From assembly GCF_000799165.1 (NCBI RefSeq), contig NZ_JUGF01000002.1, positions 992,001-1,056,000 of the forward strand: a DNA stretch of 64,000 nucleotides, given 5' to 3'. This document shows, piece after piece, positions 4,507 through 37,294 of this stretch (positions are counted from its first letter, which is position 1; every line of letters begins with the position of its first letter). The position numbers and the translations under genes are program-made. The stretch is from Methylotenera versatilis 7. GTDB taxonomy: Bacteria > Pseudomonadota > Gammaproteobacteria > Burkholderiales > Methylophilaceae. The notes under the pieces are model-generated. The model searched no databases. It was not told where the DNA came from and saw nothing but the letters and a program-made list of their open reading frames with translations.

Positions 4507-5589
4507 ATGAGTAAATTCTGGAGTGATGTTGTCCATAAATTGACGCCTTACGTTCCGGGTGAGCAGCCAAAGCTGGATAATCTGGTTAAACTGAACACTA
4601 ATGAGAACCCCTATGGGCCAAGCCCTAAGGTGATTGAGGCGCTAAAATTAGAAGCTGCTGATAGTTTAAGACTTTACCCAGACCCAAACTCTGACAAGCT
4701 CAAAACGGCGATTGCACAAAGCTTCAATTTGCAAGGGATTGATATAAAGCCTGGTCAGGTGTTTGTGGGAAATGGTTCGGATGAAGTGTTGGCGCATGTT
4801 TTCCATGCTTTATTAAAACATGACAAGCCGCTGCTATTCCCTGATATTACCTATAGTTTTTACCCGGTTTATTGTGGATTGTATGGTATTCAATATGAAA
4901 CCATTGCATTGGATAAGCAATTTAATATTGATATCCACGACTATGCGCGACCTAATGGCGGTATTATTTTTCCTAATCCCAATGCGCCAACAGGGATTCC
5001 ATTGGCGCTTGCAGATATAGAACAACTGCTGCGTCAAAATACGCACTCAGTTGTGGTCATTGATGAAGCGTATGTGGATTTTGGTACGGAGTCTGCGGTT
5101 AAGTTAATCAATACTTACCCAAATTTATTGGTGACGCATACCTTATCAAAGGCACGCTCGTTAGCTGGTTTAAGAGTTGGTTATGCGCTGGGGAATAAGG
5201 ACTTAATCGAAGCGCTGGTTCGCGTCAAAGACAGTTTTAATTCCTATCCGATTGATCGATTTGCCGAGGCGGGCGCTGTTGCTGCCATGCAAGACGGCGC
5301 CTATTTTGAAGAAACTTGTGCAAAAGTAGTCGCAACAAGGAGTCGATTGATTGATGACTTGCAAGCACTTAATTTCGAAAGTTTGCCATCAGGTGCCAAT
5401 TTCGTATTTGCAAAACATAAAGCAGTGGATGGTGCAGAGTTGGCAGCAAAGTTACGAGAGCACAATATTATTGTGCGGCACTTTAAAAAACCATCAAGAA
5501 TAGCACCCTATATCCGCATCACTATTGGCACAGATGCACAATCGAATAGTCTTATACAGGCACTTACAACGATTTTACAATCAGGTTAA
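4507..5589 (+). CDS. hisC: Histidinol-phosphate aminotransferase
   Basis: A PLP-dependent fold-type I aminotransferase that converts imidazole acetol phosphate and glutamate to histidinol phosphate. Of 360 residues; the N-terminal [13 protein letters not shown], the PNPNAPTG loop (157-164), Asp186 in [11 protein letters not shown] and the PLP Schiff-base Lys215 in [16 protein letters not shown] are all present. Last gene of the upstream his block; a 239-base gap and hps separate it from hisB. Confidence 0.95.
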
Positions 5590-5601
5590 CTGATTCAACT
5601 G

Positions 5602-5615
5602 GCGCATAAGTGCGC
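5602..5615 (+). other. Small hairpin downstream of hisC
   Basis: GCGCA, loop TAAG, TGCGC forms a 5-bp stem 12 bases after the hisC stop, followed by a T-rich stretch (TTGTTTTAT). It could be a weak terminator that ends the hisGDC transcript, but the stem is short and the T-run is not adjacent. Confidence 0.3.
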
Positions 5616-5653
5616 TAAGGTACTTGTTTTATAATCAAATTATGACCAAATTG

Positions 5654-5683
5654 TTGAAATATTGAATCAATTGCGGTTATGAT
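5654..5683 (+). promoter_or_regulatory. Candidate sigma-70 promoter for hps
   Basis: TTGAAA (5654-5659), an 18-base spacer and TATGAT (5678-5683) match the sigma-70 consensus at 5 of 6 positions in each box. A start near 5690 would leave an untranslated leader of about 140 AT-rich bases before hps. The call rests on sequence match only. Confidence 0.5.
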
Positions 5684-5813
5684 GTCGAAATGTACAGAAT
5701 GTGCAAATAGTATTTTGTAAAATTACTTTGAATTAAAACAAAATAACTACAGAATATTAATTTTTTTAATCAAATAATTTTATCGAACCCTTTATTAAAT
5801 TATTAGCGAGCTC

Positions 5814-5822
5814 GGAGGAATA
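5814..5822 (+). promoter_or_regulatory. Strong Shine-Dalgarno of hps
   Basis: GGAGGAATA lies 7-13 bases before the hps ATG at 5829. It is the strongest ribosome binding site in the his region, consistent with very high expression of HPS in a methylotroph. Confidence 0.7.
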
Positions 5823-5828
5823 GGCACC

Positions 5829-6710
5829 ATGGCACAAACCCAAATGGCATTAGATTCATTAGATTTTGACGCAACAGTTGCATTGGCAACTAAAGTAGCA
5901 CCACATGTAGATATTTTAGAAATCGGTACACCTTGCATCAAACACAATGGTATTGAATTGCTTAAAACATTGCGTGCAAAATTTCCAAACAACAAAATCT
6001 TAGTTGACTTGAAAACAATGGATGCTGGTTTCTACGAAGCTGAGCCATTCTACAAAGCAGGTGCAGATATCGTTACTGTTCTTGGTACCGCTGATCTTGG
6101 TACTATCAAAGGTGTAATCGATGTTGCTAACAAATATGGTAAACAAGCACAAGTTGACTTGATCAACGTTGCTGACAAAGTGGCACGTACTAAAGAAGTA
6201 GCGAAATTAGGCGCACACATCATTGGCGTTCACACTGGTTTGGACCAACAAGCTGCTGGCCAAACACCTTTTGCTGACTTGGCTTTGATTACTGGTTTAA
6301 ATACTGGCGCCAAAGTTTCTGTTGCTGGTGGTGTTAAAGCGGCAACAGTTCGTCAAGTAGTTGATGCAGGTGCAGATATTGTGGTTGCAGGTGCAGCGAT
6401 TTACGGTGCAGCAGATCCAGCAGCGTCAGCAGCTGAAATCACAGGTTTAGCACGTGGTAATTCAGCAGCAGCTGGTGGTCTTGGTAAATACCTGCCATGG
6501 GCATTAATCGCAGGTGCTGTATTACTGGGTTTGTATCTATTGACTGGTAATAAGCCAGCTCAAGAAGCTCCTGTTGATGCACCAGTTGTTGAAGAAGTGG
6601 CTCCAGCGACTGAAGCGCCTGCTGCAGTTGAAGAAGCTGCGCCAATTGAAGCGGCTCCAGCTGAACCAGCTGCTGAAGCTACTCCAGCACCGGAAGCTGC
6701 TGCCGAGTAA
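5829..6710 (+). CDS. hps: 3-hexulose-6-phosphate synthase with C-terminal membrane anchor and acidic tail
   Basis: HPS condenses formaldehyde with ribulose 5-phosphate to hexulose 6-phosphate, the entry step of the RuMP cycle. Residues 1-210 are a complete OMP-decarboxylase-superfamily barrel: EIGTP (31-35), the metal/catalytic DLKTMD (60-65), GVHTGLDQQ (133-141), VAGGV (165-169) and VAGAAIYGA (187-194). Known HPS enzymes are about 210 residues and soluble; this one has 293. Residues 221-239 form a hydrophobic helix (YLPWALIAGAVLLGLYLLT), and 241-293 are a tail in which 41 of 53 residues are Ala, Pro or Glu, with one Lys and no Arg. The extension is in frame and ends in the gene's own stop, so it is not a frameshift artefact. 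I infer an inner-membrane anchored enzyme with cytoplasmic barrel and external tail. The isomerase (HPI) is not in this window. The gene sits alone inside the his cluster. Confidence 0.95.
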   Translation: MAQTQMALDSLDFDATVALATKVAPHVDILEIGTPCIKHNGIELLKTLRAKFPNNKILVDLKTMDAGFYEAEPFYKAGADIVTVLGTADLGTIKGVIDVANKYGKQAQVDLINVADKVARTKEVAKLGAHIIGVHTGLDQQAAGQTPFADLALITGLNTGAKVSVAGGVKAATVRQVVDAGADIVVAGAAIYGAADPAASAAEITGLARGNSAAAGGLGKYLPWALIAGAVLLGLYLLTGNKPAQEAPVDAPVVEEVAPATEAPAAVEEAAPIEAAPAEPAAEATPAPEAAAE

Positions 6711-6743
6711 TAGCTTTTCAAGCTAAGATATATTTAGCATGGT

Positions 6744-6772
6744 AAAAAGCCGACTATTTAGTCGGCTTTTTT
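6744..6772 (+). terminator. Rho-independent terminator of hps
   Basis: A perfect 12-bp stem, AAAAAGCCGACT / AGTCGGCTTTTT, with loop ATTT and a trailing T-run, 33 bases after the hps stop. It separates hps from hisB. Confidence 0.93.
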
Positions 6773-6790
6773 ATTTGCTGTGTTTATTTA

Positions 6791-6869: not shown

Positions 6870-7457
6870 ATGCGCAAAGCCGACATCACACGCAACACCC
6901 TAGAAACCCAAATTACTGTTTCCATTAACATTGATGGTAATGGTGCTTCGCAATTTAATACAGGGCTTGGTTTCCTAGACCATATGCTAGATCAGATAGC
7001 ACGTCATGGCATGATGGATATTAACGTTCAGGCAAAGGGTGATTTGCATATTGATGCACATCATACCGTTGAAGATATTGGTATTACTTTAGGCCAGGCA
7101 TTTGCGAAAGCCGTGGGCGATAAAAAAGGCATTAATCGTTATGGCCACGCTTATGTGCCGCTTGATGAGGCTTTAAGCCGCGTGGTGCTTGATTTATCAG
7201 GCCGTCCGGGTTTGGAGTTTAATTGCCAATTCACGCGTGCCACGATTGGTGAGTTTGATGTCGATTTAGTGCACGAGTTTTTTCAGGGTTTCGTGAATCA
7301 CGCCAATGTAACTTTACATATTGATAATTTAAAAGGCCACAATTCACACCATCAGGCTGAAACTATATTTAAAGCATTCGGGCGAGCCTTGCGTATGGCG
7401 GTTACTGCTGATGCACGTATGGCAGGCATTATGCCATCTACCAAAGGCAGCTTATAA
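6870..7457 (+). CDS. hisB: Imidazoleglycerol-phosphate dehydratase
   Basis: HisB dehydrates imidazole glycerol phosphate to imidazole acetol phosphate using a di-manganese centre. The 195-residue length is the dehydratase alone, without the phosphatase domain fused in enterobacteria; histidinol phosphatase must be a separate gene. The metal-binding His clusters [11 protein letters not shown] (about 63-73) and [19 protein letters not shown] (about 152-170) are present. It opens the second his block after the hps terminator. Confidence 0.96.
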
Positions 7458-19251: not shown

Positions 19252-20442
19252 ATGGCAAAAGGCAAATTTGAACGGACCAAGCCACACGTCAACGTAGGTA
19301 CGATTGGCCACGTGGATCACGGTAAAACAACATTAACGGCAGCGATCACGACAGTGCTGACAAAGAAATTTGGCGGCGAAGCGAAAGACTACGCACAAAT
19401 TGACAGTGCGCCAGAAGAAAAAGCACGTGGTATTACCATTAACACCTCTCACGTCGAGTACGAGACGGAAACACGTCACTACGCACACGTAGACTGTCCT
19501 GGTCACGCTGACTATGTTAAAAACATGATTACCGGCGCAGCCCAAATGGACGGTGCGATCCTTGTTTGTTCAGCAGCTGACGGCCCAATGCCGCAAACAC
19601 GTGAGCACATCTTGTTGGCACGTCAAGTTGGCGTACCTTACATCGTTGTGTTCTTAAACAAAGCAGACATGGTTGATGACCCTGAGTTGTTAGAGCTGGT
19701 TGAAATGGAAGTGCGTGAATTGCTCAGCAAATACGACTTCCCGGGCGACGACACCCCAATCATCCATGGCTCAGCTAAATTAGCCTTGGAAGGTGACCAA
19801 TCACCAATCGGCGAACCAGCGATCTTCAAATTAGCAGAAGCATTAGATACTTACATCCCAATGCCTGAGCGTGCGATTGACGGCACATTCCTGATGCCAG
19901 TAGAAGACGTATTTTCAATCTCTGGTCGTGGTACTGTGGTAACAGGCCGTATCGAACGCGGTATTGTAAAAGTCGGTGACGAGATTGAAATCGTTGGTCT
20001 TAAAGACACGGTAAAAACAACTTGTACTGGTGTTGAAATGTTCCGTAAATTGCTAGACCAAGGTCAAGCAGGCGATAACGTTGGTGTATTGCTACGCGGT
20101 ACTAAACGTGAAGATATCGAACGTGGTCAAGTATTGTCTAAATCAGGCTCTATCAAACCACACACCAAATTCACAGCAGAAATCTACGTGCTAGGTAAAG
20201 ATGAAGGCGGTCGTCACACACCATTCTTCAACGGCTACCGTCCACAATTCTACTTCCGTACGACAGACGTAACAGGCGCGGTTGAATTGCCAGCAGGTAC
20301 AGAAATGGTAATGCCAGGTGATAACGTATCAATCACTGTGCAACTGATTGCACCAATCGCGATGGAAGATGGATTACGCTTCGCGATTCGTGAAGGTGGC
20401 CGTACTGTTGGTGCAGGTGTGGTTGCTAAGATTATTGAATAG
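19252..20442 (+). CDS. tuf: Elongation factor Tu, copy 1
   Basis: EF-Tu is the GTPase that delivers aminoacyl-tRNA to the ribosome. The 396-residue protein has the P-loop GHVDHGKT (19-26), [13 protein letters not shown] and the three domains in full. The protein is identical to copy 2 at 36104. I see only three nucleotide differences between the two genes, all synonymous and all in the last 140 bases (positions 20310, 20376, 20379). It corresponds to tufB by context: tRNA genes upstream, tRNA-Trp and secE downstream. Confidence 0.99.
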
Positions 20443-36103: not shown

Positions 36104-37294
36104 ATGGCAAAAGGCAAATTTGAACGGACCAAGCCACACGTCAACGTAGGTACGATTGGCCACGTGGATCACGGTAAAACAACATTAACGGCAGCGATCA
36201 CGACAGTGCTGACAAAGAAATTTGGCGGCGAAGCGAAAGACTACGCACAAATTGACAGTGCGCCAGAAGAAAAAGCACGTGGTATTACCATTAACACCTC
36301 TCACGTCGAGTACGAGACGGAAACACGTCACTACGCACACGTAGACTGTCCTGGTCACGCTGACTATGTTAAAAACATGATTACCGGCGCAGCCCAAATG
36401 GACGGTGCGATCCTTGTTTGTTCAGCAGCTGACGGCCCAATGCCGCAAACACGTGAGCACATCTTGTTGGCACGTCAAGTTGGCGTACCTTACATCGTTG
36501 TGTTCTTAAACAAAGCAGACATGGTTGATGACCCTGAGTTGTTAGAGCTGGTTGAAATGGAAGTGCGTGAATTGCTCAGCAAATACGACTTCCCGGGCGA
36601 CGACACCCCAATCATCCATGGCTCAGCTAAATTAGCCTTGGAAGGTGACCAATCACCAATCGGCGAACCAGCGATCTTCAAATTAGCAGAAGCATTAGAT
36701 ACTTACATCCCAATGCCTGAGCGTGCGATTGACGGCACATTCCTGATGCCAGTAGAAGACGTATTTTCAATCTCTGGTCGTGGTACTGTGGTAACAGGCC
36801 GTATCGAACGCGGTATTGTAAAAGTCGGTGACGAGATTGAAATCGTTGGTCTTAAAGACACGGTAAAAACAACTTGTACTGGTGTTGAAATGTTCCGTAA
36901 ATTGCTAGACCAAGGTCAAGCAGGCGATAACGTTGGTGTATTGCTACGCGGTACTAAACGTGAAGATATCGAACGTGGTCAAGTATTGTCTAAATCAGGC
37001 TCTATCAAACCACACACCAAATTCACAGCAGAAATCTACGTGCTAGGTAAAGATGAAGGCGGTCGTCACACACCATTCTTCAACGGCTACCGTCCACAAT
37101 TCTACTTCCGTACGACAGACGTAACAGGCGCGGTTGAATTGCCAGCAGGTACAGAAATGGTCATGCCAGGTGATAACGTATCAATCACTGTGCAACTGAT
37201 TGCACCAATCGCGATGGAAGATGGATTGCGTTTCGCGATTCGTGAAGGTGGCCGTACTGTTGGTGCAGGTGTGGTTGCTAAGATTATTGAATAG
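36104..37294 (+). CDS. tuf: Elongation factor Tu, copy 2
   Basis: It encodes the same 396-residue protein as copy 1, with the tufA context after fusA. AAGGAAATAATC before the start is unlike the copy 1 leader, so near-identity begins at the ATG and runs about 10 bases past the stop (TTAGGTTTTA). Differences from copy 1 are at 37162, 37228 and 37231 only, all silent. This pattern is expected from gene conversion between tuf copies. Confidence 0.99.

Follow-up and report, generated by a model that had tools for sequence, protein, structure and literature searches.

A C-terminally extended HPS isozyme in the histidine cluster of Methylophilaceae, predicted to be tethered to the inner membrane

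Particulate HPS activity has reportedly been described in Methylococcus capsulatus, and to our knowledge the entry and safe fixation of periplasmic formaldehyde in RuMP methylotrophs are poorly resolved. The solved HPS structures (HxlA, TIGR03128) have chains of 207-221 residues among the 60 matches listed, except for the 426-residue HPS-isomerase fusion 9LJ9. In gammaproteobacterial methanotrophs HPS also occurs with a C-terminal extension, which is the partner enzyme itself (HPS-hexuloisomerase fusions, NF041755). A previous study described two genes in Methylophilaceae, hps1 and hps2, one in the histidine cluster and the other with hexuloisomerase and transaldolase (PMC4109929). In the main text of that report the words 'C-terminal' and 'anchor' do not occur, 'membrane' occurs in three places, all of them about nitrate reductases, and no mention of HPS tails was found. 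The two-gene arrangement is already known, and the HPS tails are the new part as far as the open-access literature shows, in which we recognised no report of a membrane-tethered HPS (subscription papers mostly fall outside that scope).

The window is the whole 64-kb stretch of Methylotenera versatilis 7 DNA that was analysed, and the features of the tailed hps gene and its surroundings are given in Table 1. The gene is placed between hisC and hisB of a cluster in which hisG, D, C, B, H, A and F were checked (NCBIfam), has no adjacent isomerase gene and lies apart from the RuMP cluster. Two terminator-like sites were found in the stretch scanned, against a shuffle mean of 1.5. The window also holds two elongation factor Tu genes (19252-20442 and 36104-37294, 396 aa each), the translations of which look identical by eye; duplication of EF-Tu genes is common.

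Table 1. Features of the tailed hps gene and its neighbours in the window
Feature	Positions	Strand	Evidence
hps, predicted membrane-tethered HPS isozyme (293 aa)	5829..6710	+	ORF, Shine-Dalgarno, TIGR03128 250.7 bits
Catalytic HPS barrel, residues 1-209	5829..6455	+	TIGR03128, AlphaFold2, solved-structure comparison, active-site-type positions
Ser/Ala/Gly linker with Lys, residues 210-220	6456..6488	+	Sequence; pLDDT <50 at 214-216
Hydrophobic helix YLPWALIAGAVLLGLYLLT, residues 221-239, predicted TM anchor	6489..6545	+	AlphaFold2, KD-19 hydropathy; borderline on other scale
Acidic Ala/Pro/Glu tail, residues 241-293, predicted disordered and periplasmic	6549..6707	+	Sequence, AlphaFold2, composition
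Shine-Dalgarno GGAGGA, 9 bases 5' of hps ATG	5814..5819	+	Sequence
Terminator-like hairpin between hps and hisB, 12-pair stem then T run	6744..6771	+	Hairpin scan
hisC, neighbour upstream of hps	4507..5589	+	TIGR01141
hisB, neighbour downstream of hps	6870..7457	+	NCBIfam

In a profile search residues 5-205 exceeded the TIGR03128 cut-off of 200 bits, which places the protein among HPS, and the HUMPS/OMPDC barrel was found with its conserved Asp, Glu, Lys and His active-site positions. Residues E31, D60, K62, D65, D110, H135, G167, G168 and G188 are identical across all 149 HPS proteins compared and D9 is invariant in a 39-row HPS alignment; the active-site roles of these positions are presumably those known from KGPDC and HPS structures. 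In the AlphaFold2 model the barrel runs until residue 208, with its first strand at residues 3-7, and is followed by a separate helix at 221-239 (pLDDT about 85-88), and residues 243-289 and 291-293 have pLDDT <50. The whole barrel is like that of solved HPS (closest chain by sequence 3AJX, 1.3e-47; target-normalised TM-score 0.90 for 3AJX and 0.91 for 3F4W), but the window protein has 83 extra residues after position 210, including the TM helix, and among the 60 solved-chain matches listed none aligns past its residue 205. A complete barrel continued in frame by a helix at 221-239 and a 53-residue tail with 41 Ala, Pro or Glu residues, as read in the earlier note, is thus borne out by the ORF, TIGR03128 and AlphaFold2. 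Judged from its sequence, the window HPS is catalytically intact, and it is predicted to condense formaldehyde with ribulose-5-phosphate.

The Ala/Pro/Glu content of the last 53 residues is exceptional within the window, where the runner-up 53-residue stretch has 26 such residues and the median is 16 (47 ORFs of at least 150 aa). Two trivial explanations of the tail were rejected: a frameshift or assembly artefact, by the in-frame tail in 63 of 63 closed TM-type proteins (including the same-genus G022, L085), and a fusion with another known domain, by the lack of any Pfam or NCBIfam match to the tail at E up to 1. The sole other match covering the tail in its own genome, in a search at E up to 1, was a 74-aa ORF resembling a lipoprotein, its body rich in Ala, Pro and Glu (L003:1489-1713, G000:C1 about 293072-293278; E 0.009), which we took as low-complexity likeness; a similar match is present in G133.

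A single hydrophobic segment, about 19 residues long, lies towards the C-terminus of the window protein, the best segment of the tail beginning at residue 221. In 63 closed TM-type proteins, the window protein among them, the helix was defined as the 19-residue stretch with the highest mean hydropathy (KD), which was 1.67-2.66; 29-110 residues (median 52) follow it, with 35-91% A+P+E and a net charge that is negative in all 63 (-3 to -21). The biological-scale hydrophobicity sum, which is position-independent, is borderline for the window helix (+1.46) and ranges from -1.79 to +3.27 in the 63 proteins, against a minimum of +2.82 within 148 soluble barrels. A tail-anchored protein in the strict sense has its TM segment within about 30 residues of the C-terminus, and the window HPS, with 54 residues beyond residue 239, falls outside that class. 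Six of the 63 tails (L089, L090, L026, L096, L044 and L057) end in a common motif, [LV]VGAAK[DE]ATGxA. The 15 residues before the helix hold one to three Lys or Arg in 61 of the 63 proteins and no acidic residue in 62, and the 15 residues after it hold two to four acidic residues in all 63, with Lys or Arg also present in 52. The earlier note was mistaken in seeing no flanking positive charges, as K220 precedes and K242 follows the helix of the window protein. The periplasmic orientation that it had proposed for the tail is favoured by two other arguments: positive residues stand before the helix and acidic ones after it, and so the positive-inside rule would put the tail outside; and the catalytic domain needs ribulose-5-phosphate, the HPS substrate, which is cytoplasmic. 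The C-terminus of TM-type HPS thus probably faces the periplasm, the topology itself being a prediction.

A short second HPS was found in the same genome, as the earlier note had asked: it has 211 aa, is 85% identical to the window HPS over residues 1-209, and its gene sits between transaldolase and hexuloisomerase. The other question of that note, how far the extension spreads in Methylophilaceae, was answered with two sets. Among 149 distinct HPS proteins, obtained by a protein search (best 80 of 166 relatives) and a genome search, 64 were TM-type, 45 carried an amphipathic tail and 40 were untailed; all 64 TM-type and 44 of the 45 amphipathic-type proteins are encoded in the his cluster (the remaining one has no his neighbour), and all 40 untailed proteins beside tal or hpi. 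Among the matches listed, 150 genomes of the family were surveyed and HPS genes read in 135 (8 of the 15 unread genomes had no match), of which 106 had a tailed HPS, 50 with TM type and 57 with amphipathic type, G021 having both. On the same matches, the tailed copy was in his context in 101 of these 106 genomes, and an untailed HPS was read in 47 genomes, always beside tal or hpi; no untailed HPS in his context was found in the 101 genomes with a his-cluster HPS read, and no tailed HPS beside hexuloisomerase in the 135. The comparison establishes, at the level of sequence, a fusion with intact active-site positions, in two tail types, closely associated with one paralogue and mostly with one locus. 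The sole mixed context was seen in G058 (L165:2690-5311), with transaldolase upstream of a tailed HPS and hisB, H, A and F downstream, reflecting either a genuine rearrangement or a join made within hps during assembly; the rule used counted it as his context.

A functional meaning of the his-locus linkage is weakened by five genomes (G018, G031, G041, G008 and G024) in which the sequence read next to the tailed HPS holds no his gene; for G008 and G024 that sequence was its downstream side of 3.5-4 kb. The untailed copy alone was read in 29 genomes among the matches listed, namely 25 streamlined genomes of genera g14 and g16 (1.0-1.4 Mb) and G011, G028, G064 and G129, of which G011 (third copy unread) and G028 and G064 (fragments) are incomplete cases; G129 has no hisB match at all, and its assembly therefore lacks the his locus. 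hisB comes straight after hisC, with no hps between, in all 11 streamlined genomes tested and likewise in G018 and G011; in G031 hisB starts a contig. Tandem pairs of untailed HPS occur in the RuMP cluster of some genera (L189, L229-L232 and L234, from G011, G018, G031, G005, G039 and G026) and fall into two lineages, whose identity to the window protein is about 66% and 83-86%.

Beyond the family, no membrane tail on HPS was found in 29 loci of the methanotroph family, which comprised 17 fusions and 12 loci (13 proteins) ending at most 7 residues past the aligned barrel, and the idea that the tail is widespread among HPS was rejected for the gammaproteobacterial loci read. Of 150 genomes from the order to which the window's family belongs, 4 gave a match, all 4 in that family, and the plasmid records searched gave none. 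Further HPS matches were judged by open-frame length alone, bases before the start included: unfused frames were mostly 216-237, with two at 244 and 288, partial ones 167 and 202, and fusions 392-418. G398 has three hps copies (L209, L215 and L217) about 5.2 kb apart; a tandem RuMP repeat in Methylococcus has been described (PMC517821, PMC8527097).

The tail of the sister lineages has 14-17 residues and ends in an amphipathic helix of the GG[LV]FGWLKKLFS type (GG[LV]FGW[LIV]K). A DNA pattern for it, searched in 10 genomes at zero mismatches, matched 8 times, always at the 3' end of an HPS gene by coordinates; the genomes without a match were G000 (TM type) and G006 (F for W in the tail). AlphaFold2 places a helix at 218-225 of amphipathic-type HPS with a mean pLDDT of just 48-54 in that part, and the hydrophobic moment of each tail was reached by 31-62 of 2000 shuffles, a modest amphipathicity; the conserved tail pattern is a stronger argument for this type than amphipathicity alone. 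The ends of L176 (GGLFGWLKKLFGG) and L248 (GGLFGWVKKLFGG) are like that of E. coli MinD (EEEKKGFLKRLFGG), the membrane-targeting sequence of that protein, in having a short C-terminal helix G-[F/W]-[L/V]-K-[K/R]-L-F-G-G, but MinD is an unrelated protein and the motif very short, and the resemblance is taken as convergent; it concerns the sister amphipathic tail, not the TM tail of the window protein. E. coli MinD was used after 5 genomes, searched for a MinD of the family itself, had yielded nothing to TIGR01968 at E up to 1e-60. The membrane anchoring proposed in the earlier note has a borderline insertion sum in the window protein itself, and it is strongly supported by comparison, because every his-cluster HPS read, in 101 genomes, carries at its end either a TM helix or an amphipathic helix like that of MinD.

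The two tails appear to have replaced one another. Tail type needs 5 changes on the best tree built from hisC+hisB of 108 loci, a quick tree with three amphipathic rows on long branches, and strongly supported branches alone force one or two; the TM type is surrounded by the amphipathic type, which reappears inside it. One genome, seen twice as L062 (public; 5001-6780) and L104 (G021), has both in tandem between hisC and hisB, the HPS with TM helix and acidic tail first and the one with the amphipathic tail second, possibly an intermediate of tether exchange. Five genomes of genera g6, g12 and g19 have a tailed HPS whose domain is of a different lineage (64-69% to the window HPS) and which keeps the amphipathic tail and is 87-93% identical to the untailed tandem paralogue in the same genome. 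In a quick HPS-domain tree (94 of 191 rows after thinning at 95.5% identity within class; strong support for 13 of 91 inner branches) copies with and without a tail are intermixed; among its labels, G010, G017 and G030 of the window's family are wrongly prefixed gamma and the tailed L246 is wrongly called short. The barrel thus appears to have been exchanged or homogenised with the tail staying with its copy, and this points to selection acting on the tail. Comparing the window gene with nine loci of relatives, three being repeats of the same gene, gave six distinct pairs, in which tail dN was 0.14-0.32 and dS 0.4-1.5 (one dS not computable), with dN/dS <1 in 5 of the 6, those computable, some dS being high. 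Barrel dN was 0.006-0.037 in the same comparisons, the tail evolving much faster, and we therefore regard the tail as loosely and the barrel as tightly constrained.

We propose, at a probability of roughly two in three, that the tailed protein is a catalytically intact HPS isozyme held by its C-terminus at the cytoplasmic face of the inner membrane, where it would fix formaldehyde on entry. Membrane insertion and topology are predictions. In the window lineage the tether would be a single TM helix plus a disordered acidic tail that probably extends into the periplasm; in the sister lineages it would be a short amphipathic helix in the inner leaflet, and since this form has no periplasmic part, what the two share is tethering rather than the acidic tail. 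The soluble second HPS beside its isomerase partner would serve the bulk RuMP cycle, and the tethered one would join formaldehyde, delivered by periplasmic methanol (or methylamine) dehydrogenases, to ribulose-5-phosphate directly at its site of entry to the cytoplasm. A position next to periplasmic methanol dehydrogenase, suggested in the earlier note, would fit the four PQQ-dehydrogenase genes above the family cut-off in this genome, the products of such genes being periplasmic; it sits less well with the streamlined G013 and G015, which have at least one PQQ-dehydrogenase gene each and no tailed HPS among the matches listed. By general diffusion arguments, proximity alone would gain little for a fast-diffusing small molecule in a cell this small, and the fast diffusion of formaldehyde, together with these two genomes, makes a specific partner or a protective role possible.

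A partner could be what the tail serves, docking HPS to a particular membrane protein or to a partner in the periplasm, as in a metabolon that includes a dehydrogenase, a formaldehyde carrier or the respiratory chain, with membrane proximity secondary. Such docking would agree with the uniformly negative charge of the tails and the end motif shared by six of them, but letters and length of the tail vary widely, the amphipathic form occupies the same locus without an acidic tail, and beyond his genes no common neighbour was noticed at the loci, the neighbours in G018 and G031 being different; we hold it unlikely. A shade more doubtful is a trans-membrane formaldehyde-capture station, in which the acidic tail would dock periplasmic methanol dehydrogenase or an entry protein and the amphipathic helix would act alone in sister lineages; if true, the first assimilation step would lie at the entry point, with little free formaldehyde in the cytoplasm.

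With about as little likelihood as partner docking, the tethered isozyme might detoxify formaldehyde at the membrane, or be sequestered and released with membrane state, and not feed assimilation. The window copy, without an adjacent isomerase and outside the RuMP cluster, could be so explained, and MinD-type tails can bind membrane reversibly, but a TM anchor would not release, and the protein matches HPS-like barrel families only, so that no regulatory domain is evident. That the tail is merely tolerated, on a protein that is soluble, oligomerised or processed, seems to us the least probable of these readings. The borderline insertion score of the window protein and the low-complexity, fast-changing tail would be expected of it; against it stand the existence of two dissimilar tails that both seek the membrane, the absence, among the copies read, of untailed ones from his context and of tailed ones from beside hexuloisomerase, a hydropathy kept at 1.67 or above throughout the TM type, a tail retained while its domain diverges or is exchanged, and the dN/dS values below 1, some of which have a high dS.

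Membrane tethering of a working HPS, our preferred reading, suggests the trapping of some formaldehyde right at the membrane through which it comes in. Such trapping on the inner side of the inner membrane, and any benefit from it, would give a reason for the two similar HPS genes per genome. A tethered isozyme in most of the family, with two interchangeable tethers, would offer one gene with a removable tail by which formaldehyde entry can be tested, and may serve as a natural design for placing HPS in synthetic methylotrophy.
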